Origin: a bacterium
GTDB taxonomy: Bacteria > JACRDZ01 > JAQUKH01
Reading direction: 5' to 3'
NCBI GenBank assembly: GCA_040754625.1
Contig: JBFMCF010000112.1
Span: 1-39,838 of the forward strand
DNA length: 39,838 bases
Positions 7,962 through 30,766 of this stretch are shown here, piece after piece. The number at the start of each line of letters is the position of its first letter. Within the stretch, counting starts at the first letter, position 1. Both the position numbers and the translations under genes were made by a program. Under the pieces are notes generated by a model. The model saw only the letters and a program-made list of their open reading frames with translations, was not told the DNA's origin and did not search any database.

Positions 7962-8265
7962 AAATCAACCAGCCTTCTTTTAAAAGTCGGCTGAGAAAAT
8001 AATTAACATCGTCCTTTAATGTTTTCTCATCTGTTTCAAAACTCTTCAATATTTCTGACACTATCCCGTCCTCTCCTAAAGTTCCATCGGCCAGCATCCA
8101 AATCTTGCCTGCAACATAGTTCAGCTGGTGGACCACATCGGCAATAACCAATGTTACCACAGATTCTTCTGAAATATCCTCGCCGTTTCTCGCCCTTGCC
8201 AGTAATTCTTCTTCTTCAATCTCAACTCTCCAGACAATTTCAGGATTACGTTTTATTTTCTTCAC
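7939..8265 (-). CDS. PqqD-family peptide chaperone (GeoRSP-type)
   Basis: PqqD-like proteins bind a leader peptide and present it to a radical SAM/SPASM enzyme. Here IKRNPEIVWRVE opens the winged-helix fold, and LNYVAGKIWMLADGT, DGIVSEILKSFETDEKTLKD, DVNYFLSRLLKEGWL match the typical PqqD pattern ('N..A..IW.LLDG..T...I', 'D...FL..L...G.L'). The longer frame back to 8322 is translated mobile-element sequence. The likely start is GTG at 8265, created at the junction with that element, with AGGAAGG 5 nt upstream. This gives 108 residues. The stop overlaps the radical SAM gene by 23 bp. Confidence 0.82.
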   Translation of the reverse strand: MKKIKRNPEIVWRVEIEEEELLARARNGEDISEESVVTLVIADVVHQLNYVAGKIWMLADGTLGEDGIVSEILKSFETDEKTLKDDVNYFLSRLLKEGWLIYDENKNT

Positions 8266-8374
8266 CCAGCCCTTCCTTTTTAAGTTATCTTGTTTATATT
8301 CACTTCCCCAATGTTGCCACAACCCTTTTTGCCATTCCCTTGCATACCTTATATCTCAGGAAGGGCTGGGTTCA
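8261..8374 (-). mobile_element. Start-codon element E1 (MITE-like), upstream of pqqD-like gene
   Basis: Perfect 13-bp inverted repeats CCCAGCCCTTCCT (8265-8277) and AGGAAGGGCTGGG (8358-8370) bound 106 bp and are flanked by TTCA at 8261-8264 and 8371-8374. On the gene strand it reads TGAA, element, TGAA. The proximal arm supplies AGGAAGG, and its last G plus TGAA gives the GTG start of the pqqD-like gene. A weak third arm copy (9/13) is at 8318-8330. The far end starts a 9-codon frame (GTG at 8375, MNPALPEI). A strong native site AGGAGG (8402-8397) remains further upstream. Confidence 0.72.
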
Positions 8375-8422
8375 CGGTCTCTCCATATGGAATATACCTC
8401 CTGGTATATGAGAAGTTTCTTG

Positions 8423-9625
8423 TCAGGGTTTTTTATTGGACTTGGCTGTTTTAAACTTTGATAATTCCAATAACTTGTATGAAAGCTTTGCGATTGAAAA
8501 CTGGAATGTAGACGCTAAATTATTATTATCCAGAAATAAATTTACCTCAGCGGATTTCCTGAAATCCAGCAAACGGTTTAACCTGGTCTTTAAAACATAA
8601 TCATTATTCCTGTTGACCGCGCTTATAACCCGTTCTATTAAAGCATCCTGGTATGCAAGACTGTTCCTGACATCCCACAATTTTTCATAAGCTTTAAAAA
8701 ATTCGTATTCCTTTTTATTTTTGGATTCCATTTCTTCAATTTTATTTTGTTCGAACCTGCTGATGGGAATAAAGGCCGTATCATCTTTTTTGTCCCTTGT
8801 CATTTTTAAAGCCATATTACAATATCCCCTGCTTAATTGTATCATCTCATAAGACCGGACAAAATTTTTTCTCATATCTTTTTCGGCCATATCCCTGTAT
8901 TTCAGACCCTGATTAAAATACCATTCTACTTCCTCGTTTCCGCTTTGAAGCACATTATCCACATCATCTTTCACAAGATCATCCAAATCGGCGATTTTTT
9001 CTTTCATTATATTTTCTATCCCGCGTAACAATTCATCCACACTGAGTTTCATGGCGCTCAGCAAACAATCCATGGCGAAATTGATGGAATCCTGCGCAGA
9101 AATATATTCCCTGCGTTTGGTCTCAGCGCGGGCTTTTTCATAAGATAGTTTTGCCTGCTGGAACAAATCCTTTAATTTCGCGCTTATATCATTGAAATTA
9201 TTGTTAAAATAAAGTTTATTGCTGTATTCAAATAATGTTTCAAGCTGCTGCATCTTATTTTCCACCCTGTTTTTTAATTCATTTGATTCTGCATTTGATA
9301 AATTCAAAATTTTATTTGAAAGGTCTTCCGCCAACTCTATCTTTTTTATGGCCGCATTAAATTCTCCTTTTTCAATAAATTCTTTGGCCTGGGAGGCAAA
9401 CTCGATTGCTTTTTTCAAGGTTAAATGATAATCCCCGTTATAAAATTCAGAAATTAAAATTTCATATTCAATTAATTCCTGAAGTTTAAACATCTTTTCT
9501 TTTACCATTTCTTTTATATCAGAGGTGTCAAGCTCTTTATCGCTGTGTCGCTCCTCTGAATATGCAATAAAAACAGGGTGCAGCACGAAAATAAAAATTA
9601 TGCCGAATATAAATAACTTCTTCAT
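8423..9625 (-). CDS. Secreted alpha-helical protein of unknown function
   Basis: I do not recognise the family. The 400-residue product starts with a signal peptide (MKKLFIFGIIFIFVLHPVFI, then AYS/EE as a likely cleavage site). The remainder is almost wholly helical, charged and rich in K, E, L, N. It shows TPR-like spacing of A and L (YEILISEFYNGDYHLTLKKA, EFIEKGEFNAAIKKIELAED, RREYISAQDSINFAM), so several degenerate helical-hairpin repeats are plausible. There are no cysteine motifs or membrane segments after the signal. AAGGA stands 5 nt before the ATG. It lies 60 bp after trkH and 48 bp before element E1, on the same strand, so it could lead or belong to the GeoRSP run. Confidence 0.7.
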   Translation of the reverse strand: MKKLFIFGIIFIFVLHPVFIAYSEERHSDKELDTSDIKEMVKEKMFKLQELIEYEILISEFYNGDYHLTLKKAIEFASQAKEFIEKGEFNAAIKKIELAEDLSNKILNLSNAESNELKNRVENKMQQLETLFEYSNKLYFNNNFNDISAKLKDLFQQAKLSYEKARAETKRREYISAQDSINFAMDCLLSAMKLSVDELLRGIENIMKEKIADLDDLVKDDVDNVLQSGNEEVEWYFNQGLKYRDMAEKDMRKNFVRSYEMIQLSRGYCNMALKMTRDKKDDTAFIPISRFEQNKIEEMESKNKKEYEFFKAYEKLWDVRNSLAYQDALIERVISAVNRNNDYVLKTRLNRLLDFRKSAEVNLFLDNNNLASTFQFSIAKLSYKLLELSKFKTAKSNKKP

Positions 9626-9685
9626 TAATATCCTTGATTTATTTTATAAATTATATCATTTTTTCTTTTAATTTACTATCAAAAT

Positions 9686-11203
9686 TTAATTTATTACTCG
9701 TTTTTTGGGCGTGAAAAAATTAATTAAAACACCAAACAGGGTAAGAACAGAAACAAATTCCAGACGTCCAATCCACATTTCAATAATGTAAATAATTTTT
9801 AAAAGCGCCGGCATATCCGGATTGGTTATACCGCATGAAAGGCCGGAGTTGCTTCCCGCGGAAACAGCTTCAAAAAATGCCTCAATCGCCGAATAGCCGT
9901 AATACATTCCGAATATCGTACCGGTAAAATATGTCATCATGTAAAGCAGAATAATCATCATCGCGTTTTTGACAAGGGAGTTATCCAGAAGATAGTCACG
10001 TATATGATGAAATTTTTGTGAAACAACGGAAGATTCCGGGGAAATAAGCCTTCTTACTTCCTGGATTAAGCTTTTAAAAACTATACCGACTCTCAAGCTT
10101 TTAAAACCGCCGCCTGTGGAACAGGCGCAGGCGCCGATTGACATTGCAACAGAGACCCCCATCATGGCCAATGCCCCCCATTCTTTAACAAATTGTATCG
10201 CGTAAATCGTCATGTTGCCTGTGGTTGTATGGCCGGACAAAATTATGAAAAACGCCTTCCGGAAATTAATCAAAAAACCCGGGTATGTTCTTACCTGAAA
10301 TAATCCCCATATAAGAATTATAAAAGAAATTGAAAGAGTAACTATGAAAGACCTTATTTCAATATTTTCCCGCATTTCTTTTCTCTGGCCGGACCAGATT
10401 GCGTAATGAAGCGCGAAATTAAATGAGCCAAGAATACAAATAATCGTCACAACAGCGTCAATCCAGTAATTATGGTAATAAACAATATTCTGGGTCTGCG
10501 GGGCAAACCCCCCTGTGCTCCACGCCCCCATAAATAAGCATATGCCGTGGTATAAAGCCTTGAAAAAAGGAAGCCCGTCCGCCAATTCAATAATGGTAAG
10601 AATTGTGGTCCCAACCGCAAGGTACAAGAGGCTGATCATCCAGATTGCCCTGGATGTCTGGGCGACATTCGGCAAAAGTTTTTCTTCCCTGCCTTCACCG
10701 ACATACATTTTAAACATTCCCGATGTGCCTCCTACCATAAAACTGAGCGCAATAACCACTATCCCCTGCCCGCCGCAATAAGTTAAAATATGCCTGTAAA
10801 GATTCAACCCGTATGAAACATGGTCCAAATCCTTCATTAAAAAAAGCCCTGTAGTGGTAAAACCGCTCATTACATCGAAACAAGCGTCAAGATATGAACC
10901 CATTACCCCGCCAAGATAGTAAGGAATGGCGGCCAGGCACGTGGCAACTATCCAGCTGAAACCTACTGCGGACAGCCCCTGCGTCCACGACGGTGTCCTA
11001 TCCGTACGGCATAAAATCATAAACAAAAAACCGGCAGCCAGGGAAATTGAACCGCCGAGGACCAAATCAACGGCAGGGTTCCATTCTTTTAAAAGAAAAG
11101 ATATTACGGCTGGAATAAACAGGAGAAAACCCACCCCTGCGATAATTTTTGAACTAAGGAATATTATAATCTTTGCATCATCCGCATTAACCTTCGGGCT
11201 CAT
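9686..11203 (-). CDS. trkH: TrkH/KtrB-type potassium uptake channel subunit
   Basis: Integral membrane subunit that conducts K+ across the inner membrane. The 505-residue sequence has about ten or more hydrophobic segments. Four selectivity-filter loops are visible: SGFTTTGLF, GAWSTGGFAP, SGHTTTGNM and SAGSNSGLSCG, each carrying the conserved glycine. The GxxxK-type helix region and the conserved intracellular GREEKLLPN loop also fit TrkH. The start overlaps the OB-fold gene by 17 bp. Together with the two TrkA-type genes upstream it makes a complete Trk system. Confidence 0.95.
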   Translation of the reverse strand: MSPKVNADDAKIIIFLSSKIIAGVGFLLFIPAVISFLLKEWNPAVDLVLGGSISLAAGFLFMILCRTDRTPSWTQGLSAVGFSWIVATCLAAIPYYLGGVMGSYLDACFDVMSGFTTTGLFLMKDLDHVSYGLNLYRHILTYCGGQGIVVIALSFMVGGTSGMFKMYVGEGREEKLLPNVAQTSRAIWMISLLYLAVGTTILTIIELADGLPFFKALYHGICLFMGAWSTGGFAPQTQNIVYYHNYWIDAVVTIICILGSFNFALHYAIWSGQRKEMRENIEIRSFIVTLSISFIILIWGLFQVRTYPGFLINFRKAFFIILSGHTTTGNMTIYAIQFVKEWGALAMMGVSVAMSIGACACSTGGGFKSLRVGIVFKSLIQEVRRLISPESSVVSQKFHHIRDYLLDNSLVKNAMMIILLYMMTYFTGTIFGMYYGYSAIEAFFEAVSAGSNSGLSCGITNPDMPALLKIIYIIEMWIGRLEFVSVLTLFGVLINFFTPKKRVIN

Positions 11204-11687
11204 TTTCTTTTTCCTTTTTTCTTAAAAATATTTCAATTCCAAAAAGAATTACTGCAAAAATAAAAACCCCCGATGTTATTTTTAACCTTTTTTTGTCAAC
11301 GGGACGTGAAATATTACTGCCTTTTTTTAAAACATTAAGGGCATCCAAATGGATATCCACCTCGCCCATATGCTCGGGGCAGGCGCGATGGAATCTGCCA
11401 GTTATCTGGATAAAATCACCGGCGTGGTTATAATCGCCCGGGTGAGACATGTTTTTTGCCAATTCCGCAGGCATCCAGACGCCGATAGCATTGCTGCCAT
11501 CAGAAACATTGATCCACGCGAATTCTTTTTTATAGAAAATATCCCCTATAGTTTCACCTTTAACACAGACTTCTTTAAAATCATGTTCCCTCGCGTTTTC
11601 AATCAATTCAGTTACAGAAATAAAGGCGTAAGCGCCGGATATATAAGAAAATATTATTAAAAAAAACCAGAAAGATACTTTTTTCAC
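11187..11687 (-). CDS. Signal-peptide OB-fold protein with C-terminal membrane anchor, in the trk operon
   Basis: The longer frame back to 11729 is element sequence. The GTG at 11687, formed at the element junction with AGGAAGG 5 nt upstream, gives a good signal peptide (KKVSFWFFLIIFSYISGAYA). An OB-fold-like core follows: VCVKGETIGDIFYKKEFAWI, 'NVSDGSNAIGVWMP' and DFIQITGRFHRACPEHMGEV, similar to tRNA anticodon-binding-type OB domains in exported proteins. One transmembrane helix (about residues 134-153) and a charged tail end the 166-residue protein. A domain outside the cell with a C-terminal anchor is implied. The overlap with trkH suggests an accessory role in K+ uptake, which is only inference. 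Confidence 0.75.
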   Translation of the reverse strand: MKKVSFWFFLIIFSYISGAYAFISVTELIENAREHDFKEVCVKGETIGDIFYKKEFAWINVSDGSNAIGVWMPAELAKNMSHPGDYNHAGDFIQITGRFHRACPEHMGEVDIHLDALNVLKKGSNISRPVDKKRLKITSGVFIFAVILFGIEIFLRKKEKENEPEG

Positions 11688-11797
11688 CCAGCCCTTCCTT
11701 TTCTTTAATGATTTTATATTTCTAATCAATTTTCAGTAACTATTACTGTATTTTTAACCTCATCCTTCTTTTTTAAACTTAGGAAGGGCGAGGTTCA
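11683..11797 (-). mobile_element. Start-codon element E2 (MITE-like), upstream of the OB-fold gene
   Basis: Arms CCCAGCCCTTCCT (11687-11699) and AGGAAGGGCGAGG (11781-11793), 11 of 13 matching, bound 107 bp; TTCA flanks both sides (11683-11686, 11794-11797). The proximal arm gives AGGAAGG and the GTG start of the OB-fold gene. A third arm copy, CCTCATCCTTCTT, lies at 11758-11770. On the gene strand it pairs with the distal arm across a 10-nt loop, and it shares the distal arm's CCTC/GAGG change, which the proximal arm lacks. The distal end opens a 12-residue frame (11798-11760, MNLALPKFKKEG). Its ATG overlaps the stop of the 42-residue gene as ATGA. Confidence 0.7.
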
Positions 11798-11923
11798 TCT
11801 GGAAAGTATTTCTCCTATTATGAATATAAATGCCATAAGCAAAAACAAGGCAACAGAAAAACCAACTTCCGTTAAAATCCCTAAAAAAACATCTTTTAGC
11901 CAATTATTGCCATTTTTTAACAT
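11795..11923 (-). CDS. 42-residue single-span membrane protein in the trk operon
   Basis: A small frame in the gap between trkA and element E2. It translates as MLKNGNNWLKDVFLGILTEV followed by GFSVALFLLMAFIFIIGEIL and SR. A hydrophobic helix from about residue 12 to 38 suggests one membrane span with a polar N-terminus. It begins 8 bp after the stop of the upstream trkA gene and ends with the TGA that lies in the 4-bp repeat of element E2, so it sits exactly in the operon. I see no strong ribosome site. Small subunits such as KdpF exist for other K+ pumps, but there is no sequence likeness I can claim. It could also be a chance frame. Confidence 0.5.
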   Translation of the reverse strand: MLKNGNNWLKDVFLGILTEVGFSVALFLLMAFIFIIGEILSR

Positions 11924-11930
11924 TTTAATA

Positions 11931-12596
11931 TTAACTTATTTTTCCTATAAGAGAAGTAAGAAGGGACTGTTCATTTTCAACCGATGTTATAGCGATAACA
12001 TCATCTCCCGGGGTAAGGACTGTTTCACCTTTTGGAATAATTATATCACCCCCGCGCACAATGCTGACTAAAACAGAATTTGGAGGAAGTGTAATATCTT
12101 TAATCATTTTGCTGATAACAGGTGAACCTTCACCAAGGTCCACCCGGACCAGGGAAATATTTCCTTTTTTGAAACTTAACAAATTTATGAAATCATCCAG
12201 CGAAACTTCTTCCTCGACAATCTTCGCGATAATGGTGGTGCTGTTTACAGGGACATCAACACCCAATTCGGAAAAAATCGCTTCATTGTTCGGGTTGTTG
12301 ACACGCGCAACTGTGCGCAAAACATTATACCCTGTTTTTGCGAGCTGGCAGGCGACAAAATTGTCCTCATCGCTGCCTGTAACCGCCGCGAATACGTCCG
12401 TTTTTGCAATCCCGGCCTGTTCCAGTATATTAATATCACAGCCGTCCCCGTTAATGACCATTGAATCAATTTCATGGGCAATTTGTTCGCAGCGCGCCCT
12501 GTCTTTCTCTATTAAAGCAACATTATGCCCGTCCCTGGCCAATTTTTTAACCAAATAATATCCGACCTTGCCGCCGCCGACAACTACAATGTTCAC
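11931..12596 (-). CDS. trkA: TrkA-type RCK protein (NAD-binding plus TrkA-C), second copy
   Basis: Cytoplasmic gating subunit of a Trk potassium system. The N-terminal Rossmann fold starts MNIVVVGGGKVGYYLVKKLA (GxGxxG) with ALIEKD as the acidic end of beta-2, then VINGDGCD and AAVTGSDEDN. A TrkA-C domain occupies about residues 135-215 (LVRVDLGEGSPVISKM, LPPNSVLVSIVRGGDIIIPK). At 221 residues it is a one-RCK protein, half of the two-domain E. coli TrkA. The start is GTG at 12596, at the junction with element E3, with AGGAAGG 5 nt upstream. The pre-insertion start was probably ATG AAC with GGCGGAG at 12696-12690. Confidence 0.92.
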   Translation of the reverse strand: MNIVVVGGGKVGYYLVKKLARDGHNVALIEKDRARCEQIAHEIDSMVINGDGCDINILEQAGIAKTDVFAAVTGSDEDNFVACQLAKTGYNVLRTVARVNNPNNEAIFSELGVDVPVNSTTIIAKIVEEEVSLDDFINLLSFKKGNISLVRVDLGEGSPVISKMIKDITLPPNSVLVSIVRGGDIIIPKGETVLTPGDDVIAITSVENEQSLLTSLIGKIS

Positions 12597-12679
12597 CCCG
12601 CCCTTCCTTTCTAATTCTTAAGTTCACAGCCACATTTACCCTCACTCTTCCTTGTTACTATTAGGAAGGGCGGGGTTCA
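12592..12679 (-). mobile_element. Start-codon element E3 (MITE-like), upstream of second trkA
   Basis: Perfect 13-bp inverted repeats CCCCGCCCTTCCT (12596-12608) and AGGAAGGGCGGGG (12663-12675) bound 80 bp; TTCA flanks at 12592-12595 and 12676-12679. The proximal arm supplies the SD and the GTG start of trkA. A third arm, CCCTCACTCTTCCT, at 12639-12652 is preceded by TTTA and can pair with the distal arm over a 10-nt loop (11 Watson-Crick pairs plus one wobble, one bulge). The distal end begins a 12-residue frame, MNPALPNSNKEE (12680-12642). That frame has its own SD, GGCGGAG, 9 nt before the ATG; this is presumably the original trkA ribosome site. Confidence 0.75.
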
Positions 12680-12701
12680 TTTTCTTTTACTCCGCCTGTA
12701 C

Positions 12702-13349
12702 TTATTGAAAATAATCTGAATATTTTTCAAGTTTTTCCGACTTGACCATTGCGTAAATTATCACATTTTTCTCAATAACATAATCTTTCTCCGCCATATT
12801 CAATTTTTTATCCTTTTTCACCAGGATAATCTTAAATTCATTCTTTTTTTCTACCTCCCCCGCGGTTTTCCCGATCAAATCCTGGTTAGGAACAAAATTT
12901 ATTAACCTGACATCCCCGTTTTCTAAAATACTTGAATCGCTAGAATAATTAGTCTGGATAATCTTGTTTTTCATAAGCCTGGCGATTAAAGTCGTCCCGC
13001 CTACTACATCCAATCCCAGTTTAAAGTATGTTTTTTCTCTGCCGGGGTCATATATTCTTGCGACAATCTTGGGCACTTTGAAAATTCCCTTCGCGACCTG
13101 GGCAGCCATAATATTTGTATTGTCACGATTTGTTACTGCCGCGAAAGCATCCGCTTTTTCAATCCCGGCCTCTAACAAAACATTCTTGTCAAAACCGCTC
13201 CCGGTTACTGTCGCGCCGTTGAACCCCACACCAAGGCGGGTAAACGAATCCGGGTTTTTATCAACAACAACGACATTATGCCCGTCATTGCTTAAAATAT
13301 TTGCCAACTGCGCACCAACACGGCCGCATCCCACAATAATCACATACAT
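12702..13349 (-). CDS. trkA: TrkA-type RCK protein, first copy
   Basis: One-domain regulatory subunit of the potassium channel. Starts MYVIIVGCGRVGAQLANILS with GxGxxG and VVVDKNPDSF, then TVTGSGFD and AAVTNRDNTN, which is the NAD(H)/nucleotide-binding RCK pattern. A TrkA-C-like half occupies about residues 140-215. It is a paralogue of the next gene; the pair probably does the work of the two-domain TrkA. AAGGA stands about 7 nt before the ATG. The gene leads the operon trkA, trkA, 42-residue protein, OB-fold, trkH. It has a strong promoter about 130 bp upstream and a structured leader between. Confidence 0.92.
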   Translation of the reverse strand: MYVIIVGCGRVGAQLANILSNDGHNVVVVDKNPDSFTRLGVGFNGATVTGSGFDKNVLLEAGIEKADAFAAVTNRDNTNIMAAQVAKGIFKVPKIVARIYDPGREKTYFKLGLDVVGGTTLIARLMKNKIIQTNYSSDSSILENGDVRLINFVPNQDLIGKTAGEVEKKNEFKIILVKKDKKLNMAEKDYVIEKNVIIYAMVKSEKLEKYSDYFQ

Positions 13350-13470
13350 AGTGTTTCCTTTTATTTATAAAGAGTAAACAGGCCAAAACTTGAATTTACA
13401 AGTAAAATATTAATCACTCTGGTAACTGTGCTCCCTCATATTTTAAAGTAAACAGGCCAGAGCATAAATC
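13350..13470 (-). promoter_or_regulatory. Structured 5' leader of the trk operon with 13-bp direct repeats
   Basis: Transcription from the promoter at 13477-13504 gives a leader of about 120 nt. On the gene strand TGGCCTGTTTACT occurs twice (13459-13447 and 13385-13373), 74 bp apart. CTCTGG and CCAGAG can pair around the first copy, ACTTG/CAAGT forms a hairpin at 13403-13388, and GTTT/AAAC plus CTTT/AAAG can fold over the AAGGA site near the start. This looks like a cis-acting control region. I could not match it to the c-di-AMP (ydaO) riboswitch consensus. Confidence 0.45.
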
Positions 13471-13476
13471 TCCAAG

Positions 13477-13504
13477 ATTATATACTTAATAACCGGTTTG
13501 TCAA
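13477..13504 (-). promoter_or_regulatory. Sigma-70-type promoter of the trk operon
   Basis: Read leftward: TTGACA (13504-13499), 16-bp spacer, TATAAT (13482-13477), a full match in both hexamers. It is back to back with the rightward promoter at 13524, their -35 sites 19 bp apart. Confidence 0.8.
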
Positions 13505-13523
13505 GGGTAAAATGAAAAATCTC

Positions 13524-13552
13524 TTGACAAATATAATTGTTTTCACTATAAT
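13524..13552 (+). promoter_or_regulatory. Sigma-70-type promoter of the DUF2155-livK pair
   Basis: TTGACA (13524-13529), 17-bp spacer, TATAAT (13547-13552). The predicted start near 13559 leaves about 50 nt before the ATG at 13612, which has AAAGGGG just upstream. Confidence 0.82.
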
Positions 13553-13611
13553 ACTTTTGATTTTTTCCAATGTAAATATTTCAAAATAACTATTTGTGAA
13601 AGGGGCTAAAA

Positions 13612-14088
13612 ATGATTAATAAAAACAAGGTGAAAAAGATAGCATATATCGGATTATCCTTATGCTTTTTGATTTCATGCCAGAACAAAGAAAAATTGAC
13701 CGAAAAACAACAGGAATCGCAGCAAATTGTCCAGATGGTCCCTGGTGCGGGAAACGCATGGAAGTCAGTAAGACTGATAATAAAAAACAAAAAAGATCCA
13801 AAAGATAAAGGCAAAGATTTCGATGTGGAAATAGGGGTAAATCCCGTATCAATCCCAAATACAAATCTCAAGATTAAAATTGAAGAATTCTATCCTGATT
13901 TTTGCATGGACGGCCAGGGCAAAGCCGGGTCAAAAAGCACTACTTTGAACAATCCGGCTGCCCGCATAATTGTAGAACAAGAGGGAAAACCTCCATACCA
14001 GGGATGGTTATTTGCCAATTACCCGGATGTTCATGAGTTTCCAAGTGAAGAGATAAGTATCCGTTTAAATGACTTCATCAAAAAATAA
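13612..14088 (+). CDS. DUF2155-type lipoprotein
   Basis: The signal peptide ends with LCFLISC (Cys at residue ~20), a lipobox. The core KIKIEEFYPDFCMDGQGKAG with NNPAARIIVEQEGKPPYQGW and LFANYPDVHEF matches the DUF2155 (COG4765) pattern, where the CMDG cysteine and GWLFA..P..H are conserved. At 158 residues this is a normal size. The start has AAAGGGG 6 nt upstream. The stop overlaps the next start (TAATG), so it is coupled to livK. Function is unknown for the family; linkage to an amino-acid binding protein may be incidental. Confidence 0.82.
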   Translation: MINKNKVKKIAYIGLSLCFLISCQNKEKLTEKQQESQQIVQMVPGAGNAWKSVRLIIKNKKDPKDKGKDFDVEIGVNPVSIPNTNLKIKIEEFYPDFCMDGQGKAGSKSTTLNNPAARIIVEQEGKPPYQGWLFANYPDVHEFPSEEISIRLNDFIKK

Positions 14089-15320: not shown

Positions 15321-15325
15321 ATTTG

Positions 15326-15362
15326 TAGGGGCGGGTTCTAAACCCGTCCTAAAATATTTTTT
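15326..15362 (+). terminator. Rho-independent terminator of livK
   Basis: TAGGGGCGGGTT (15326-15337), loop CTA, AACCCGTCCTA (15341-15351) make an 11-bp stem with one bulge, and a T-rich run follows (to 15362). The livM stop codon lies inside the stem's right side. Confidence 0.7.
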
Positions 15363-17153: not shown

Positions 17154-17174
17154 GAGTAAATGGTGAGATTTTAT

Positions 17175-18491: not shown

Positions 18492-18494
18492 TTT

Positions 18495-19274: not shown

Positions 19275-19297
19275 ATTGGCTCCATACAAGAGCTCTT

Positions 19298-20305: not shown

Positions 20306-20369
20306 TAGTAAACCTTTAAACATAGAATGTTCATTATATCATCAAACTGAGTTCAAATCAATAAAATTT

Positions 20370-21128: not shown

Positions 21129-21130
21129 AT

Positions 21131-22300: not shown

Positions 22301-22780
22301 TTTACCGTTTATTTTACTGCATTTTGCAGCACTTTTCCAATTAAATTATTTTGCTTTATTTTATCGACAAACAAAAAGAAAAGATAAAAATTATCCAATG
22401 GAAATTGTTCGCAATTATCCATAATATTGGTAAAATATACAGGTATGGAATGGAATTCGCGTAAAGTTGAATGATAAACGGGAAAATAACTTAATAAATG
22501 CAGAAAAAATACTTAAGATTTTCGAAGATTTTAGTGGTAAAATAGAAAATCAAATTAAAAGTTGAAGAAATATTCTTTTAAAAAAGGTTTTTTCGACAGA
22601 CTTGTTAAAACAAATTAAGAGAAAAAAATGAATAAGAAAGAACATCTTGAATAATTAAAATTTTAAATCGAGGGAATAAAGAGGAAAATGTGTTAAATAA
22701 TTCTGTTAATTTTTTAAGAAGTGGATGACTTGCTGAAGCGGCCGGCAAATTCAGCTAAAGCGTCAACAGGAGAATTTAAA
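22301..22780. other. 480-bp stretch without a supported gene
   Basis: Between the divergent mnmA and the coiled-coil gene. It is AT-rich with only short frames. One open stretch of about 40 codons ends at about 22570 (NLINAEKILKIFEDFSGKIE and neighbours) and has no start site or recognisable motif; it may be a decayed coding remnant. No clear promoter was found. Confidence 0.4.
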
Positions 22781-23485: not shown

Positions 23486-23911
23486 CGATGTTTAACAAAT
23501 TGAGATTTCGGGCGTTTTTTTACCGCATTTTGTATTGCCTTGCCGGATTAAATTATTTTTTTTGCAGCCAAATTACACGCACGGCAATTTAATTATAACC
23601 GTAGAACCCTTGCCTACACCTTCTGAAAATATTTTAATTTCTCCTTTGTACATTTCAACTTGGTTATAGAGCCCCTTCATGTTCAACTTTGGATAAGTAT
23701 TAGTTTATTTTTGATTGGTATTATTCTTGTCTTAAGTTCCTTAATAATAAAAAAACACAAATAAAGATTAATGAGATCGCAGATTGACGTAGTTAAAAGA
23801 TAGATAACGTTCTTAATAAAAACTTTTCGCTCCACTTGAGCTTATAATATATTTAAAGGAATAAGTGTAAGAATGTTTTATAAAAAAAGGCATACCGATG
23901 ATTTATTTGAT
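23486..23911. other. Gene-poor stretch with a kinase remnant
   Basis: Apart from the histidine-kinase remnant at 23573-23704, I see no intact gene, RNA gene or clear terminator. The rest is AT-rich with stops in all frames. Confidence 0.5.
23573..23704 (-). pseudogene. C-terminal remnant of a sensor histidine kinase (HATPase end)
   Basis: Leftward translation gives KLNMKGLYNQVEMYKGEIKI then FSEGVGKGSTVIIKLPCV and a TAA stop. This is the G2 box and last strand of a HATPase_c domain (pattern GL.....E..GG.I...S..GKGS.V...LP). The frame is closed by a stop just upstream of 23704, and no start, H-box or N-box is present. About 43 codons of a gene of several hundred survive. It looks like what is left after deletion. 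Confidence 0.75.
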
Positions 23912-24721
23912 TTATAACTCCTCATTCATACTTCCCGTGCGGTAACCCTGCAAATCCAAAGTCACATAAACAAAACCCAGTGATTTAAATTTATTGATTA
24001 TTTTTTCACGGATATTTTTCCTGTTTAACCGTTCAATGGCCAAAGCTTCAAGTTCAATCCTTGCAAGGTTTCCATGGACCCTCACGCGAAATGATTTAAA
24101 CCCCAAAATGGAAATAAATTTCTCCGCTTTTTCTATTTTTACAAGGTTTTCTTTTGTTATTTCTTCTCCATAAGGTATCCGGGAGGAAAGACAAGCCATT
24201 GAAGGCTTGTTCCATGTCGGTAATCCCAATTCACGGCTCAGCCGCCGTATGTCTTCTTTTGTTAACCCGGCCTCCAAAAGAGGGCTGCGGACACCAAATT
24301 CCTTTGCCGCCTGCCTGCCGGGACGGACATCTTTCAAGTCATCCCTATTGGTTCCGTCACATATCCATTTTATATTTTCTTTCCCTGCAATATCAGCCAG
24401 TTTTGCAAACAATTCAAGTTTACAAAAATAACAACGGTCGGGAGGATTGGATTTGAAATTTTTATTATTTAATTCTTTTGTTTTTATTACCATGTGCCTC
24501 GCTTCAATAGCTTTAGCTAACTTCACGGCTTCCTTTAATTCTCTTGCAGGATACGTCTCTGACTGCGCCGTAACCGCCAAAATATTCCTGCCTAACACAT
24601 CATGTCCGACTTTCAGCAAAAATGCGCTGTCCGCCCCGCCGGAATAAGCCAGTATAAACGCGCCCATTTTTTTAATGTTTTTTTTCAGCCTTTCAAATTT
24701 TTCCTTCAAAATACTTTCCAT
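23912..24721 (-). CDS. larE: LarE-type ATP-dependent sulfur transferase, three-cysteine form
   Basis: LarE makes the sulfur ligands of the nickel-pincer cofactor of lactate racemase and its relatives. The PP-loop AYSGGADSAFLL is at about residue 25, followed by ILAVTAQSETYP. DRCYFCK (~97-103) and KPSMACLSSRIPYG (~175) place three cysteines. The family exists in two forms: one with a single sacrificial cysteine and one with three cysteines holding a [4Fe-4S] cluster that carries extra sulfide. The CxxC plus C pattern here fits the second. Length 269, normal. No larB, larC or larA is within the window. Confidence 0.9.
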   Translation of the reverse strand: MESILKEKFERLKKNIKKMGAFILAYSGGADSAFLLKVGHDVLGRNILAVTAQSETYPARELKEAVKLAKAIEARHMVIKTKELNNKNFKSNPPDRCYFCKLELFAKLADIAGKENIKWICDGTNRDDLKDVRPGRQAAKEFGVRSPLLEAGLTKEDIRRLSRELGLPTWNKPSMACLSSRIPYGEEITKENLVKIEKAEKFISILGFKSFRVRVHGNLARIELEALAIERLNRKNIREKIINKFKSLGFVYVTLDLQGYRTGSMNEEL

Positions 24722-24744
24722 GATACCATTAGGGCCTCTTATTA

Positions 24745-24774
24745 TAAAATAAAAAAACCGACTCTAAAGCCGGT
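24745..24774 (-). terminator. Rho-independent terminator downstream of the sigma-factor operon
   Basis: Read leftward: ACCGGC, loop TTTAGA, GTCGGT (24774-24757), then a run of T. It ends the transcript from the sigma-factor gene. It also lies just after the putative larE transcription start and could act as an attenuator there. Confidence 0.75.
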
Positions 24775-24782
24775 AATAAGAA

Positions 24783-24810
24783 ATTCTATCCCAATATATA
24801 AAATTGTCAA
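24783..24810 (-). promoter_or_regulatory. Probable promoter of larE
   Basis: Read leftward: TTGACA (24810-24805), 16-bp spacer, TAGAAT (24788-24783). Transcription would start near 24776, directly before the terminator hairpin. Confidence 0.55.
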
Positions 24811-24841
24811 TAAATTATTTTAATGAATTTGTTTTTTCCTA

Positions 24842-25672
24842 TTATGCAACTAAATCATCTTTAACCTTGGACAATTTACCCTTCAGCCTCAAAATGGCCT
24901 TGGTATGCATCTGTGACACTCTCGACTCAGACACATCAAGAAGGTCTCCTATTTGTTTCAACGTCAACTCTTCAAAATAATATAAAGAAACAACTGTCCT
25001 TTCCCTCTCAGGCAGCCTCTCAATAGCCTGCTGCAAAACTTCTTTTTTCTCCTGTGACTCGCTTTCTTCCTCCGGGTTCGGGATCTTAAAATCTTCAACC
25101 AAATCAAGCATCTGGACAGCCTGGTCGTCATCTTTAACAGTCCAGAATTTATCCAGTGAAACAACAGCCGTATTATTCACTTTTGTGACAAGATTATAAA
25201 AATCATCCATGCTAATGCCCAATGCGCCTGCCATTTCAGTATCAGTAGCCTGCCGTTTTAATTCGTTTTCCAGTTCACTGCAGGTCGCCTCCAGTTGTCT
25301 TGCCTTCTGCCTGACTGAACGCGGGACCCAGTCTAACGCCCTTAATTCATCCAGGATCGCTCCTCTCACGCGCGAGATAGCATATGTTTTAAATTTTATG
25401 CCCCTGTCCGGGTCAAATTTCTCGATTGCATCCATAAGCCCGATTATACCGCAGCTTACGAGATCGTCCGATTCGCTGTTCGGTTTATATGTCGGCAGGC
25501 ACATCTCAATACGGCTGACAACATATTTAACAAGATACATATATTTTTTAATAATCACCTCTTTAACCCTGTAATCTTTTCTTTTTTTATACCGGTTCCA
25601 TAAGTCATCATCCTCTTCCAAAACAGGATTCTGGTCCTTGGCAGAAAAAAACAGTTTTGAAATGTTTTTCAT
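24842..25672 (-). CDS. FliA/WhiG-family sigma factor (sigma-28 type)
   Basis: Alternative RNA polymerase sigma factor. Region 2 shows DLVSCGIIGLMDAIEKFDPD, 'GIKFKTYAISRVRGAILDEL' and RALDWVPRSVRQKAR, which is diagnostic of FliA/WhiG. Region 3 (ELKRQATDTEMAGALGIS) and region 4 (LPERERTVVSLYYFEELTLK, then QIGDLLDVSESRVSQMHTKA) follow. Length 276. It starts directly after the stop of the upstream gene (TAGATG), so the two are one operon. There are no flagellar genes or FlgM in the window; it may control motility elsewhere or another function, as WhiG does. Confidence 0.93.
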   Translation of the reverse strand: MKNISKLFFSAKDQNPVLEEDDDLWNRYKKRKDYRVKEVIIKKYMYLVKYVVSRIEMCLPTYKPNSESDDLVSCGIIGLMDAIEKFDPDRGIKFKTYAISRVRGAILDELRALDWVPRSVRQKARQLEATCSELENELKRQATDTEMAGALGISMDDFYNLVTKVNNTAVVSLDKFWTVKDDDQAVQMLDLVEDFKIPNPEEESESQEKKEVLQQAIERLPERERTVVSLYYFEELTLKQIGDLLDVSESRVSQMHTKAILRLKGKLSKVKDDLVA

Positions 25673-26038
25673 CTAATTGATCCTCCCTTCTGAATTTTTT
25701 ATTTTCTTTTTACCCAATTCCAAAAGTTCCTCTTCATTTCTTACTGATTTTGGATCAACGTCAAGCCAAAAAAATAAATCCAGTGCCGCCCTGCATATTT
25801 CGCTGTCATTAAGCTGTATCCCGTCTATATTCCCGCTGTGGAACGCGTATTCTCTTAATTTTTTTATTTGATCAATACGTAATTGGATATTTTTCTGCCG
25901 GATCTTAAAAATCTTCACAAGGGCGTCATCCTTTATCCTTAATTTCAGCCTGTTATCATGTGACAAACCCAGTTTATTAATCATCACTTCTTTTTTCCTG
26001 TCTTTTAAAGATTTTTTGTTTATTGTTATAAAATCCAT
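25673..26038 (-). CDS. Small protein upstream of the sigma factor, possible ribbon-helix-helix regulator
   Basis: A 121-residue charged protein I do not recognise by family. Its middle section, KNIQLRIDQIKKLREYAFHS then a short insert and LNDSEICRAALDLFFWLDVD, has the order of a ribbon-helix-helix (CopG/Arc) domain: a basic strand, a helix, a turn and a helix starting with D/S-E-I-C-R-A-A-L. The ATG at 26038 lies about 20 nt from the predicted transcription start; the ATG at 25984 is an alternative with AGGA upstream. Octamer repeats cover its own promoter, which would suit autoregulation. It could instead be an anti-sigma partner. Confidence 0.6.
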   Translation of the reverse strand: MDFITINKKSLKDRKKEVMINKLGLSHDNRLKLRIKDDALVKIFKIRQKNIQLRIDQIKKLREYAFHSGNIDGIQLNDSEICRAALDLFFWLDVDPKSVRNEEELLELGKKKIKNSEGRIN

Positions 26039-26042
26039 AGTA

Positions 26043-26074
26043 TAGTATTATAATATTATAGTATTATTATATTA
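26043..26074. promoter_or_regulatory. Four tandem octamers over the regulator/sigma promoter
   Basis: TAGTATTA (26043), TAATATTA (26051), TAGTATTA (26059) and TTATATTA (26067) run head to tail with an 8-bp period. They cover the -10 hexamer and transcription start. Ribbon-helix-helix repressors often bind such short iterated sites, so this is a candidate operator. Confidence 0.5.
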
Positions 26075-26093
26075 TATAAAAAATATATGTCAA
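26066..26093 (-). promoter_or_regulatory. Sigma-70-type promoter of the regulator-sigma operon
   Basis: Read leftward: TTGACA (26093-26088), 16-bp spacer, TATAAT (26071-26066), both full matches. Expected start near 26059, inside the octamer array. Confidence 0.78.
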
Positions 26094-26149
26094 GCAAAAT
26101 ATAACTATATTTTATAGATAGTTATAAATATACGTAATATTTTATACAA

Positions 26150-26173
26150 TAATATAATAATATTATCGTATTA
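26150..26173. promoter_or_regulatory. Second octamer cluster upstream of the sigma operon
   Basis: TAATATAA (26150), TAATATTA (26158) and TCGTATTA (26166) have the same length and phase pattern as the array at 26043-26074. They lie about 60 bp upstream of the -35 site. Possible distal operator; the extreme AT content makes chance likeness a real risk. Confidence 0.3.
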
Positions 26174-26234
26174 TATAATTTTTTATTTAATACTTTTTTT
26201 GAATAAACTGAAAATCAGGACAAAAATATCGCAA

Positions 26235-28205
26235 TCAACGGCGGGCGATTTCCTTTAACCATTCTTTAACTTTTTGGGACTGGGGGGAATCCGGCTCAAG
26301 TTTCAAAAAATCATTAAAATCCCTGACGGCAGAATTAAAAATATTTTTCTCTGCATATAAAAAACCCAGGTTATAATATGCCTCGGGGGTGGGATAAATC
26401 TTATTAGCTGATTGATATTGATAAATCGCAAGGTCCGCCTTTTTTTCTTTTAAATAAATCCTTGCCATGTTTAAATTGAAGGCAAATAGCTGCCGCAATA
26501 TTTCATTGTCCCTGACAAGGCGAATAGATTTATGCTTCCCCAGACCCCGGTATGAATAATCCAGCCATATTTTTTCATCAGTAAAATCCGCATTTTTCTC
26601 CCGCCAGAGAATACCTTTAAATTGCAGCGGACTGCTTTTCTGTAAAAAATCTCTGGCAAATAATGTATAATAAAATTTGTAGCCGGGATTATATGTTTCA
26701 ATATCTTCTGTAATAATTTTACTTCTTTCCGTTAAATAATTTATGTAATTCCAATCCGCGAATTCTTTTCTTTTTAAAACCAATTTCGGTTCTTCCTGCA
26801 TCATCTGGGCATAATACCATGGCATAGAAGCCATTCTCTGGTGCACTACAGCCAAATCTTTCCTCCTGCCCTCGCTGTATTTATAATACCATAAGGGGAA
26901 AGTATCGCCCGATAAAGAAGTAAAAATCAAACTTTTTTCCTCACAGGTTCTCGCCATATTTGCCGCGAAATCATAAGCAAAATAGTTTCTCTTTAAATCA
27001 TATAACGCATAATGATCAAAAAGAGATGTCAAAGGTAAAAGGAAAACCAGTACTAAAATAAAAACCCACATGCCAGGGGAAACAGGCGTGACTTTTTCTA
27101 AATAAAAATGAATTTTTTCCAGGATAAAAGCTACGCCGAAGCTTATCCAGACAGCAAACACCGCATATAAAGGCAGATAAAATGTTCTAAGAAGGGCAAA
27201 AATATGTGTGGGGATGGGCGGATTTACTATAAAAATAAAACCAATCCCGCTGCAAAAAGTGATTAACGAAAAAGTAATAAATAATTTCAGGTTTTTTCTA
27301 AATAGTCTCCATAATCCAAAAAAAGAAAAAAAGAAAGTCCAGATACTGACCTGTTCAATAAAACCGAAAAGATTAAACTGCTGAATTATTTTTTTAATAT
27401 CACGCGCTGTGTTCAATGCCCCATATTGCTCTCTGTTAACGGCAAACAAAAATCCCCTCATGGTTTCCGGGTTACTCCAATCCAGGTATGGGTTTTGAGC
27501 TGAACGAAGGGGTAAATAAACATAAATTGTAAGCCCAAAAGCAAACAAAAATATCATACAAACAAGATGTTTTATTTTGAATATTTCCCTCCAGTCCGTG
27601 GCCAATAAAAAATATATAAATGCAGGAAAAAAAAGAACCGCCTGCTCATGGTTCCCAAAACTCAGGCCATAAATTAATGAACCCAGAAAAATATAGCGGA
27701 TATCCCTTTTACTGTCCCATACCAGCAAAAGACAGGTCAGAAGCATCATAAGGAAGAGATTTAACGTATAAACTTCCGTGGTAACAGAATGAAGCCATAT
27801 CATACTGGAGAAGCCGGTAAGCATTGCCGCGATTACCGCCGGGACAAAACCGTCAAGTAAAATCCCCGTTGAAGTTTTCCCTTTTTCTACCAGGCTCCTC
27901 TCAATCCTTAAAACAATAAAATAAACCATTAACACGCTTAATGACCCCAAAACCGCACAGGCCAAGTTACCTCTAAAAGCGATATTACCTACAAGAAACA
28001 GAGACATCAAAACTTTCATTGTTATTGTATAAAGAGGATAACCTGAAGGATGTGTAATTCCCAAAATATACGGAGAGGTAATCAATTCACCGCTGTCTTC
28101 ATAAGTTATGGTGGGAGCTAAAGTATGAATATAGACTGCCAGGGAAATAAGAAAAACTATGATACCTATAAAATAAGGCTTATCTTCTTCCGCAAATATT
28201 TTCAT
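26235..28205 (-). CDS. DUF2723 membrane protein (GT-C-like) with C-terminal TPR repeats
   Basis: A 656-residue polytopic protein. The opening TLAPTITYEDSGELITSPYI with LGITHPSGYPLYTI is the DUF2723 signature, the family of the eukaryotic O-mannosyltransferase TMEM260; the DSGE acidic residues face the periplasm in GT-C folds. About ten to twelve helices follow, then a soluble part. The last 75 residues form TPR units (ADLAIYQYQSANKIYPTPEA, YYNLGFLYAEKNIFNSAVRD, FNDFLKLEPDSPQ). A role in lipid-linked sugar transfer to secreted proteins is likely by family. It starts 4 bp after the DUF4159 gene. Confidence 0.9.
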   Translation of the reverse strand: MKIFAEEDKPYFIGIIVFLISLAVYIHTLAPTITYEDSGELITSPYILGITHPSGYPLYTITMKVLMSLFLVGNIAFRGNLACAVLGSLSVLMVYFIVLRIERSLVEKGKTSTGILLDGFVPAVIAAMLTGFSSMIWLHSVTTEVYTLNLFLMMLLTCLLLVWDSKRDIRYIFLGSLIYGLSFGNHEQAVLFFPAFIYFLLATDWREIFKIKHLVCMIFLFAFGLTIYVYLPLRSAQNPYLDWSNPETMRGFLFAVNREQYGALNTARDIKKIIQQFNLFGFIEQVSIWTFFFSFFGLWRLFRKNLKLFITFSLITFCSGIGFIFIVNPPIPTHIFALLRTFYLPLYAVFAVWISFGVAFILEKIHFYLEKVTPVSPGMWVFILVLVFLLPLTSLFDHYALYDLKRNYFAYDFAANMARTCEEKSLIFTSLSGDTFPLWYYKYSEGRRKDLAVVHQRMASMPWYYAQMMQEEPKLVLKRKEFADWNYINYLTERSKIITEDIETYNPGYKFYYTLFARDFLQKSSPLQFKGILWREKNADFTDEKIWLDYSYRGLGKHKSIRLVRDNEILRQLFAFNLNMARIYLKEKKADLAIYQYQSANKIYPTPEAYYNLGFLYAEKNIFNSAVRDFNDFLKLEPDSPQSQKVKEWLKEIARR

Positions 28206-28209
28206 TCGC

Positions 28210-28881
28210 TTAATATAAGAGTGTATAGGTAATTATATTAATCCCCATCTCAAACGCTTTTTCTCTAATTTCAGGGGGGTCATTATAAACTTCCTGGCTT
28301 ACCCAGCCGTCACTGATATTTGTGTTATAGGTATAAAAAAGGACCAGTTTTCCTTCATGATATATCCCCAGTCCTTTAGGCCGGCCGGGATAATGCTCAT
28401 GGACCTTGGGCAGACCTTCCGGAAATTTGTAAACTAAATGATAAATTGGATGAGAAAACGGCAATTCTATTAATTCTTTATCAGGAAAAACCCTTTTTAA
28501 TTCCTGCCTGAAATATTTGTCCATACCATAATCATCATCAACATATAAAAAACCGCCGTTTGTTAAATAAGTGCGGAGACGCGTTATTTCCGGATCGGAA
28601 AATTTTATATTGCCATGCCCGGTTGCAAATAAAAACGGATAGGAAAAAAAATCCTCATCCTCAATCGAAACAACTTTTTCTTTTGAAGAAACTTTAATAT
28701 TTGTATTTTTTTGTATTTCTTTGGCGAGGTTTGGAATCAGGGACGGATCATTATACCAATCGCCCCCTCCGCTGTATTTCAACCTTGCAATGGTAAATTC
28801 TGACCACGCGGAACAAAATTTATTCAAAGCAAAAAATAAAAAAATTAATAATAAAAGCCTATTTTTTAGATTCTGTAACAT
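28210..28881 (-). CDS. DUF4159 domain protein, exported
   Basis: After a signal peptide (NRLLLLIFLFFALNKFCSAW) comes FTIARLKYSGGGDWYNDPSL, PFLFATGHGNIKFSD, LRTYLTNGGFLYVDDDYG, and VFPDKELIELPFSHPIYHLV. This is the DUF4159 pattern, a glutamine-amidotransferase-like fold often fused or linked to MoxR/BatA clusters. Length 223 residues. Its start overlaps the PDZ gene by 23 bp. It is probably functionally tied to the VWA cluster at 31914-36948, though four genes and a promoter lie between. Confidence 0.87.
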   Translation of the reverse strand: MLQNLKNRLLLLIFLFFALNKFCSAWSEFTIARLKYSGGGDWYNDPSLIPNLAKEIQKNTNIKVSSKEKVVSIEDEDFFSYPFLFATGHGNIKFSDPEITRLRTYLTNGGFLYVDDDYGMDKYFRQELKRVFPDKELIELPFSHPIYHLVYKFPEGLPKVHEHYPGRPKGLGIYHEGKLVLFYTYNTNISDGWVSQEVYNDPPEIREKAFEMGINIITYTLLY

Positions 28882-29566
28882 TCATACTCAATTCTTTTGT
28901 CAAAACTGACCCGTTATGAATGATTGTTAAAAAAACAGGTTCATTTAATTTAACCTGGCTGGCTACCTGGCCAAAATTTTTTAAATCTTTAAAAGTTTTC
29001 CGGTTTATGCCGATTATCAAATCGCCTTTTTCTAATTTGGCGTTATAGGATATTGAATCTGTTTTAATATCAGAAACAATAATATTCACAGGTTTATCCG
29101 AAATTTCCACAACCTTAACCTTAAAACCGAGCCTCTCCAGAAGTTCCCTTACCTGTCCCCATGTATCTTCTAATGTAATTTCCAATTCTATTTCTTTTGT
29201 ATCGCGTAAAAGTTTTACCTTTATCTTATCACCGACTTTTTTGCTGAAAATTGCAGTTTCAAATTCATATTGTGTCTTAATCGATTGGCCGTCAATATGC
29301 TTAATTATATCGCCTTTCTCAATCCCCGATATTTTAGCAGGGCTTTTTTCGATAAAATCATCAACTAATACTCCATCCGCCTCTCTCTTTTTTGTCCTCT
29401 CCTTAAAATAATCTTTTATAATTAAACCCATCCACGGGGTTTTATTAATTTTTTCTTCTAATTCAATTCCCTTCTGAACATCAGGCTTACTTTTAGTTTC
29501 TTCTGAAAAACCATAATTAAAATTAAATATAACCAAAAATAAAAAAAATATACTACAATTTTTCAC
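28859..29566 (-). CDS. Exported protein with two PDZ domains
   Basis: The open frame runs back to 29668, but that part is translated element E4. The GTG at 29566, made at the junction and with AGGAAG upstream, gives a proper signal peptide (KNCSIFFLFLVIFNFNYGFS). PDZ 1 (about residues 45-120) contains GVLVDDFIEKSPAKISGIEK and GDIIKHIDG. PDZ 2 (about 135-225) contains NIIVSDIKTDSISYNAKLEK and GDLIIGINR. There is no protease domain, so it is probably an adaptor or substrate binder in the periplasm. It overlaps the DUF4159 gene by 23 bp. Confidence 0.85.
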   Translation of the reverse strand: MKNCSIFFLFLVIFNFNYGFSEETKSKPDVQKGIELEEKINKTPWMGLIIKDYFKERTKKREADGVLVDDFIEKSPAKISGIEKGDIIKHIDGQSIKTQYEFETAIFSKKVGDKIKVKLLRDTKEIELEITLEDTWGQVRELLERLGFKVKVVEISDKPVNIIVSDIKTDSISYNAKLEKGDLIIGINRKTFKDLKNFGQVASQVKLNEPVFLTIIHNGSVLTKELSMNVTESKK

Positions 29567-29646
29567 CCAGCTCTTCCTTCCATAGTTAATAGAGAACCTA
29601 ATACTTTCCCCAAGCCTTCCTTTATTTTCAGGAAGAGCTGGGTTCA
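29562..29646 (-). mobile_element. Start-codon element E4 (MITE-like), upstream of the PDZ gene
   Basis: Perfect 13-bp inverted repeats CCCAGCTCTTCCT (29566-29578) and AGGAAGAGCTGGG (29630-29642) bound 77 bp; TTCA flanks at 29562-29565 and 29643-29646. Both arms carry the same C-to-T (G-to-A) change relative to E1, so pairing is kept. A third arm, CCCAAGCCTTCCT (29609-29621), pairs with the distal arm across an 8-nt loop (10 Watson-Crick and 2 wobble pairs of 13). The proximal arm gives SD and GTG start. Here the whole element is an open frame, from MNPALPENKG into the PDZ protein. Confidence 0.75.
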
Positions 29647-29675
29647 TTTTACATTTTGATTTTTGCATTTACTTA

Positions 29676-30653
29676 TCACCAATCCCTTTCTATGATGTAG
29701 TCCGTTAATGTTACAAGCGCCTGTTTTATTTTTGAAGGAGGGAATATTTCCAGTTCTTTTTTGGCCGATTGAATATATTTTCCTCCCATATCAATTACTT
29801 TCTCAAGTATTTTATAATCATTCATTTTACCGCGGATATACAGAATATCATTTTCATTCAACCCTTCACTATCAAGCATTTTACAAAGCGTATCTTTATC
29901 ATCCGGTTTAGATTCCTGGAGAAGATATATCAAAGGGAGTGTATATCCGCCTTCACGCAAATCATTGGTCACCGGTTTACCAAGTTTTTCTTTTTTTGCA
30001 TTCCAGTCCAGTGTATCATCAATTATCTGAAATGCAATGCCTAAATTTAAGCCGAACCTTTCTAACGCATAAATCTTATCACGGGATAAACCACCGCACA
30101 TACCGCCAGCCTTGGCACAGGCTGAAATTAATCCCGCCGTTTTCGCACGGATTATATATAAATAGTCTTCAAAACTGACTTCCGGATCGTTTTTAGCTGC
30201 TTCCTGGAGGACTTCCCCCTCGGTCATGTCATTGGTGGCCCCGATAACCAATCTTATCGCTTCTATGTCCTTGTCTTTTAAAAGTAAACGACAACCCTTT
30301 GTGTATAAATAATCCCCTAGAAGAACGGCAAATTTGTTATCCCATTTTGCGTTTATTGAGGGTTTCCCCCGCCGGAGATTAGCTTCATCCACAACATCAT
30401 CATGAACAAGTGTCGCAGTATGAATTAACTCTATCGCAACAGCGAGTTTAACGCTTCTTTCCCTGTCAAATTCGCCGAGTTTTGCACAAAGGATTAAAAT
30501 TGCCGGGCGGACACGTTTCCCCCCCGGCAATAAAATATGAGAAATAACAGGCGAAATCTTTGCGTTATCAGCTTCAATTTCTTTTTTAAGCTCAACTTCA
30601 ACTTCATCTAACTCACTTTTTATCAAATTATACAGGAAAATCAGGTTAAACAA
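29676..30653 (-). CDS. Trans-polyprenyl diphosphate synthase (IspB/GGPS family)
   Basis: Builds the isoprenoid chain of quinones or related lipids from IPP. The first aspartate-rich motif is LVHDDVVDEANLRRGKPS (about residues 83-100) and the second is IDDTLDW with KLGKPVTNDLREGGYTLPLI (about 211-240). GKRVRP near residue 46 binds IPP. Length 325, typical of hepta/octaprenyl synthases. The likely start is TTG at 30653, 6 nt after the GGGGG end of element E5. Without the element the same TTG would follow AGGAG at the same spacing. It is co-directional with the porin and PDZ genes. Confidence 0.92.
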   Translation of the reverse strand: MFNLIFLYNLIKSELDEVEVELKKEIEADNAKISPVISHILLPGGKRVRPAILILCAKLGEFDRERSVKLAVAIELIHTATLVHDDVVDEANLRRGKPSINAKWDNKFAVLLGDYLYTKGCRLLLKDKDIEAIRLVIGATNDMTEGEVLQEAAKNDPEVSFEDYLYIIRAKTAGLISACAKAGGMCGGLSRDKIYALERFGLNLGIAFQIIDDTLDWNAKKEKLGKPVTNDLREGGYTLPLIYLLQESKPDDKDTLCKMLDSEGLNENDILYIRGKMNDYKILEKVIDMGGKYIQSAKKELEIFPPSKIKQALVTLTDYIIERDW

Positions 30654-30655
30654 AG

Positions 30656-30766
30656 TTTACCCCCACACCAAATCCATTGTTGTTAAAATTATTACTGTAT
30701 TGTAAACTTTCAAAATTGCACCATCGGATACCCCACTTAAATCAGTCGATTTGGTGTGGGGGTTTA
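30656..30766 (-). mobile_element. Start-site element E5 (MITE-like variant), upstream of polyprenyl synthase
   Basis: Perfect 15-bp inverted repeats CCCCCACACCAAATC (30660-30674) and GATTTGGTGTGGGGG (30748-30762) bound 103 bp; TTTA flanks at 30656-30659 and 30763-30766. The sequence differs from E1-E4, but the plan is the same. A third arm, CCCCACTTAAATC (30731-30743), pairs with the distal arm over a 4-nt loop (11 pairs). The proximal end GGGGG replaces a native AGGAG at the same distance from the TTG start. The internal motif ATTACTGTATT is shared with E2. Confidence 0.7.

Follow-up and report, generated by a model that had tools for sequence, protein, structure and literature searches.

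The DNA stretch analysed here (the window; 39,838 nucleotides of contig JBFMCF010000112.1) carries five short elements with inverted ends, each lying at the beginning of a different gene (Table 1). A preliminary description had reported these elements. Its coordinates and end lengths are all confirmed, as are the 4-bp repeats that flank each element (TTCA four times, TTTA once); the imperfect 11/13 ends belong to the element at 11683-11797. Four of the elements have related ends (CCC[A/C/T]GC[C/T]CTTCCT) and are grouped here as family 1, whereas the fifth (30656-30766) differs, with CCCCCACACCAAATC ends. All five had been described as abutting start codons. This is accurate for the four family-1 elements, where the junction itself makes the start, but the fifth lies 2 nt upstream of its TTG. 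Among the adjacent genes, the small secreted one (11187-11687) has no match in Pfam, OB-fold being only the name given in the preliminary description, and no relatives of the PDZ protein were found in a scan of genome contigs. Elsewhere in the window, a motif like ATCGACAAACAAAAAGAAAAGATATAAA (22354-22393) recurs intergenically in a same-genus genome, G001 (C43, C12, C7 and C2), and has the appearance of a common promoter or regulatory site.

Table 1. Elements in the window and parts of the trkA copy (positions in the 39,838-nucleotide stretch).
Feature	Position	Strand	Remarks
Family-1 copy within the (G)TGAA start, pqqD-like gene	8261..8374	-	Old start GTG; new GTG 8265-8263; gene 7939-8265; empty ATGAA site in G001
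Family-1 copy within the ATGAA start, small secreted OB-fold-like gene	11683..11797	-	New GTG 11687-11685; gene 11187-11687; G001 has AGATGAGAAG here
Family-1 copy within the ATGAA start, trkA-like gene	12592..12679	-	New GTG 12596-12594; gene 11931-12596; empty site GGAG...ATGAAT in G001
trkA copy, right inverted end AGGAAGGGCGGGG	12596..12608	-	Shine-Dalgarno-like AGGA/GGAAGG plus G of the GTG start; representative of every copy
trkA copy, left inverted end CCCCGCCCTTCCT	12663..12675	-	Immediately follows the TGAA of the former start
trkA copy, hairpin H1 at the left end	12638..12679	-	Left end pairs with internal AGGAAGAGTGAGGG
Family-1 copy within the ATGAA start, PDZ-domain gene	29562..29646	-	New GTG 29566-29564; gene 28859-29566; empty site in G001
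Family-2 element, CCCCCACACCAAATC ends, TAAA duplication	30656..30766	-	Between Shine-Dalgarno and TTG start of polyprenyl synthase gene 29676-30653

In the genome of this stretch (G000), family-1 elements are 79-111 bp long, with 13-bp inverted ends and a duplicated TNAA that is nearly always TGAA. Read in gene orientation, the four window copies begin with the consensus given above and end with AGGAAG[A/G]GCNGGG, so that insertion converts (A/G)TGAA to (A/G)TGAA-[CCC...GGG]-TGAA. The right end (AGGAAGGGCNGGG followed by TGAA) contributes a Shine-Dalgarno-like stretch as well as the initial base of a new start codon. The element's final G and the TG of the duplication together form GTG; in gene direction, the right end reads AGGAAGGGCNGG followed by GTG AA. 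Tips of the form TCC...GGA give ATG at the junction instead. The downstream reading frame opens at the junction GTG (ATG once) in 32 of the 33 copies in G000, the sole clear non-start copy (C33:19782) lying after a stop codon, near a tRNA. The interrupted genes have no function in common. PurA (VNTVVIGTQWGDEGKGK) and RplI (VKVILIQDVEKLGNRG) start exactly at the junction codon in G000, as do CoaD and Fmt (VKIIFMGTPEFA) in other genomes, and these N-termini match those known for the four protein families. The interrupted genes thus almost certainly begin at the junction codon. We further note that a right end, AGGAAGGNCNGGGTGAA, occurs without a left end at several gene starts (L022, L023, L024 and L026 in G000; L043, C42:13735, in G001). 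These solo right ends may be natural Shine-Dalgarno sequences or remnants after deletion, and at L022 the G001 alignment is compatible with both.

The fifth window element had been described as having different ends but the same plan. It belongs to a separate family (family 2; about six copies) that is not start-codon specific and that resembles other CCCC-tipped MITEs found away from starts. The window copy separates an old AGGAG from the TTG start, and its GGGGGT is a possible replacement Shine-Dalgarno sequence. Another copy (108 bp; L074/L084; G000 C41:15623-15734) is embedded in frame in a reading frame of 310 residues, a position that recalls the Rickettsia palindromic elements, mobile palindromic repeats that are tolerated because the gene stays readable. 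Family 1 is likewise a mobile repeat at genes that remain readable, but Rickettsia palindromic elements are read in frame as an extra peptide, whereas a gene carrying family 1 restarts after the element. That family 1 too is an in-frame N-terminal extension would accord with the family-2 copy just described and with the two of 33 family-1 copies in which the old frame meets no stop. It is scarcely credible given that element lengths in G000 are not multiples of three and that in 31 of 33 copies the frame from the left ATG or GTG runs into a stop within the element or shortly beyond it.

Comparison with G001, which is collinear with G000 across the window (roughly 71-86% nucleotide identity) and shows gaps exactly at the elements, supplies the empty sites that the preliminary description had proposed looking for. 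The start region is free of any element at all 17 loci compared, comprising 16 family-1 sites and the family-2 window element. At the family-1 sites G001 has ATGAA in 15 cases and ATGAG in one; within the window this amounts to ATGAA three times and ATGAG once, with an unbroken AGGAGTAAACTTTG at the fifth element, and the orthologues of the twelve further copies all have ATGAA at the start (12/12). Upstream homology reaches the junction, or nearly so, in most of these twelve comparisons; L072 and L007 lack homology in the upstream flank, and the evidence there is the element-free start only. Since these start regions are uninterrupted at 17/17 sites, family-1 copies are, by sequence comparison, real insertions. 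The same sites refute a conserved, riboswitch-like 5' leader that never moved. Such a leader would suit a structured sequence without an open reading frame at gene starts, but the genes are unrelated, interiors can be 90% alike at unrelated genes, and Rfam 15 gave no match above the gathering score (only a sub-threshold snoRNA match elsewhere); we consider this reading close to untenable.

The association with start codons extends over the whole genome. The 17-bp right end, allowing up to two mismatches, has 65 matches in G000 and only one for a reversed control pattern, which rules out chance for the right-end pattern. A covariance model (R1) recovers exactly 33 copies in G000, with 32 inside start codons rather than scattered, and no copies in G001, G002 or G003, in a scan run with stricter filters that could miss weak copies. 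By comparison, the window holds 589 unoccupied TGAA tetranucleotides on both strands (541 coding, 41 intergenic and 7 in start codons, with genes called by hand from the list of open reading frames); about 1 TGAA in 50 falls in a start codon. Because this share is so small, the start location must be either targeted or very strongly filtered by selection. Even if only start and intergenic insertions survive, the probability of at least 32 of 33 copies at starts is about 7e-21 (the 4 occupied window sites included). Together with the empty sites, the 32 start-codon copies support the earlier reading of a non-autonomous mobile element with a 4-bp duplication.

These observations make it very probable, at the level of sequence, that family-1 elements are short non-autonomous mobile elements that settle in start codons and recreate the start, so that the gene should stay translated. 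The purine run and terminal G of the right end would recreate a GTG (or ATG) start at normal spacing, and the interrupted gene should keep its native N-terminus. Translation would begin at the new start, as the sequences imply, while the old start would remain as a short leader reading frame, nearly always ending inside the element. The elements would presumably be moved by a recombinase acting in trans. The Shine-Dalgarno sequence and first start base in the right end, the fixed orientation and the presence in several phyla are points that the preliminary description did not contain. Insertion, empty sites, position, orientation and spread among phyla are all established by the comparisons reported here.

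Copies in other genomes were sought with the pattern TGAACCCCGC-N65-95-GCGGGGTGAA in 84,980 species genomes, which returned at least 119 stretches. Matches in Rhodobacter and other high-GC genomes were taken as chance, their ends being short (6-7 bp) and their reading-frame rates at control level; short-ended and high-GC matches are excluded from the counts that follow. Among the matches listed, ends with a Shine-Dalgarno-like run open a reading frame at the junction in 53 of 57 cases (mirror control frame, 11 of 57), and ends without one do so in 5 of 16. The base before TGAA, again among the matches listed, is start-codon-like in the first group (A 51, G 4, T 2, C 0) and is A 8, G 6, T 1 and C 1 in the second. 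Most named hosts among the matches listed belong to Candidatus Omnitrophota; Elusimicrobiota, WOR-3, Yanofskybacteria and another Parcubacterium are also represented, as are several unclassified MAGs. A genome from another phylum (G096) has 16 covariance-model matches, most at starts and some making ATG through TCC...GGA tips; from reading the sequences, we take the target genes to include rplA, fmt, radA and hypF, among others.

Within its first 800 kb, the Omnitrophota chromosome CP070837 (G098) carries 37 copies. About 33 are at starts: 32 open at the junction, and one more has a nested copy inserted in its own GTG. In this nested pair (C1:603821-604007), the later element sits in the GTGAA start made by the earlier one. 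The few non-start copies in G098 include some with TAAA, TTTA or TCAA flanks. The target had been proposed as TRAA; the 4-bp duplication and the dominance of TGAA stand, but the target is better written TNAA, TGAA being dominant because start codons dominate. Within single genomes, copies 87-90% alike occur at unrelated genes, and interiors this similar at unrelated genes indicate dispersal within genomes. In G000 the best interior identity between copies is 0.81; these copies have diverged, so that recent movement is seen only in other genomes. Two further kinds of element were encountered: an element of 99 bp from a different phylum (L045:1250-1348, G023), bounded by CCCCGTTAGAAAC ends and TTTA flanks, similar in plan but away from any evident start, and CCCCGC-tipped MITEs with TGAA flanks and no Shine-Dalgarno sequence, away from starts (L192 and L277 in Moranbacteria; L199 and L201 in Nitrospirota). 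The latter are possibly parent families, perhaps linked to the transposase.

How the copies came to lie at starts bears on two readings. In one, which we favour tentatively, family 1 belongs to a mobile class spread over several candidate phyla, with at least three end families, whose integration would be steered to starts by an enzyme or by the mRNA or translation machinery and whose ends would act as portable initiation modules, making insertion into essential genes harmless and then irreversible. In the other, plausible though more doubtful, a MITE inserts at TNAA without targeting and a selective ratchet does the rest: coding insertions die, intergenic copies are soon deleted, and start copies persist through host dependence on the ribosome-binding site of the element. 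The ratchet is in keeping with the few non-start copies flanked by TAAA, TTTA or TCAA, and the solo right ends fit loss of the remainder by deletion. Selection indeed also acts, as ends with and without a Shine-Dalgarno sequence differ so sharply in start location. Intergenic TGAA, however, outnumbers start TGAA about 4:1, yet non-start copies make up only about 3% in G000 and about 10% in the Omnitrophota stretch, and this rarity of intergenic copies favours steering. The ratchet also has no need of conserved left ends, yet these are as well conserved as the right ends across the 33 copies, and the pairs 87-90% alike are at starts. Insertion would thus be steered to starts, not placed there by selection alone.

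All 33 copies share one orientation, the forward alignment being better in 526 of 528 interior comparisons, a count to which A-rich composition adds. The start would be restored in either orientation, yet only one is used in G000. Single-strand mobility of the HUH (IS200-IS605-like) type would fix the orientation, with the left TGAA as target and the right TGAA as part of the element rather than a duplication. The near-invariant TGAA on both sides and the hairpin directly beside the left TGAA agree with this. We nevertheless judge it improbable: some copies are bordered on either side by an identical tetranucleotide other than TGAA (TAAA, TCAA), which is what a true duplication would leave, and one Omnitrophota copy is in the opposite orientation. 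In addition, the Y1 enzymes that were detected are surrounded by other repeats, and the search of G096 yielded none.

The left end and an internal imperfect repeat are predicted to form a hairpin, with z below -1.5 in 26 of 33 copies and a mean of -0.3 in the mirror test on the right half. The left-end pairs of a copy outperform pairs swapped between copies (p=0.0012 for H1). The same holds for left-right pairing, for which none of 5000 permutations did as well; both tests ignore the shared ancestry of copies. In the predicted full fold, the left end pairs with the right end and hides the Shine-Dalgarno sequence, at a median cost of 11 kcal/mol to free it. Since this pairing can hide the ribosome-binding site, anatomy does not guarantee expression. 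The internal repeat would capture the left end during transcription, keeping it from masking the Shine-Dalgarno sequence, and ribosomes on the leader or finishing an upstream gene would help to free it. These features suggest a further reading, in which the element is a mobile RNA regulator that alternates between left-internal and left-right pairing and is opened by translation of the leader frame or upstream gene. The copy-matched pairing, the equal conservation of both ends and the fixed orientation speak for regulation, but we think it rather unlikely in view of the mismatch at end position 4 in 9 of 33 copies, the disparate functions of the target genes and the ancestry that the swap tests ignore. 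Moreover, Omnitrophota families show a weaker left-end hairpin, and the CCCCTC family at start codons shows none (z 0.45); the hairpin is thus not required for start-codon location.

The search for an enzyme using family-1 ends, which the preliminary description had suggested, found none among the three transposase families covered (PF13701, PF01609 and PF01797). The IS1380 transposase PF13701 has no match in G000, DDE_Tnp_1 (PF01609) is absent or below cut-off in element-bearing genomes, and the Y1_Tnp (PF01797) loci of G000 and G098 lack family-1 ends. Several of these RAYT-like Y1 genes (L117-L119 in G000; L354, L356 and L358 in G098) have GGGGACAC/TTGTGTCCCC or GGGACG repeats on their flanks, which seem to be REP-like sequences belonging to these genes. 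No autonomous copy bounded by family-1 ends 0.4-4 kb apart occurred in the stretches scanned. Pairs of ends at IS-like distances were considered as such copies and rejected, each proving to be two neighbouring MITEs.

By form, family 1 is a MITE: it is short (well below the limit of some 300 bp used for bacterial MITEs), lacks an open reading frame, has inverted ends, a short target duplication and empty sites, and is multicopy and dispersed. It differs from bacterial MITEs in that nearly all copies lie in start codons in one orientation, with ends that carry a ribosome-binding site and start codon, and in that no parent transposon was found. REP repeats are intergenic and have GTAG-type tetranucleotides; family 1 resembles the REP/BIME-RAYT system in its hairpin beside a constant tetranucleotide and in the Y1 genes of some element-bearing genomes, but REPs lie between genes, and the Y1 genes here accompany other repeats. 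Correia/NEMIS, RUP and BOX are, like family 1, small repeats near genes, able to affect expression, but have other duplications, and we know of no start-codon insertion or start replacement by them. The piggyBac/IS1380 superfamily has a 4-bp TTAA target and ends beginning CC. Family 1 shares a 4-bp TNAA target and CC-beginning ends, but given the lack of a PF13701 transposase in G000, membership is only a lead. The preference for start codons had been called undescribed; the papers searched, with subscription journals mostly outside their scope, likewise gave no description of a start-codon-inserting element. In its site, and in the start signal of its ends, family 1 is unlike any element known to us.

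Start codons of essential genes would be expected to be among the worst sites for a DNA insertion. By carrying its own start signal, family 1 would represent a new answer to the problem of harm versus spread that selfish DNA faces, one in which the host gene becomes dependent on the insert. Start sites would in this way be relocated in dozens of genes per genome, and ends of the family-1 type would constitute natural portable start modules.
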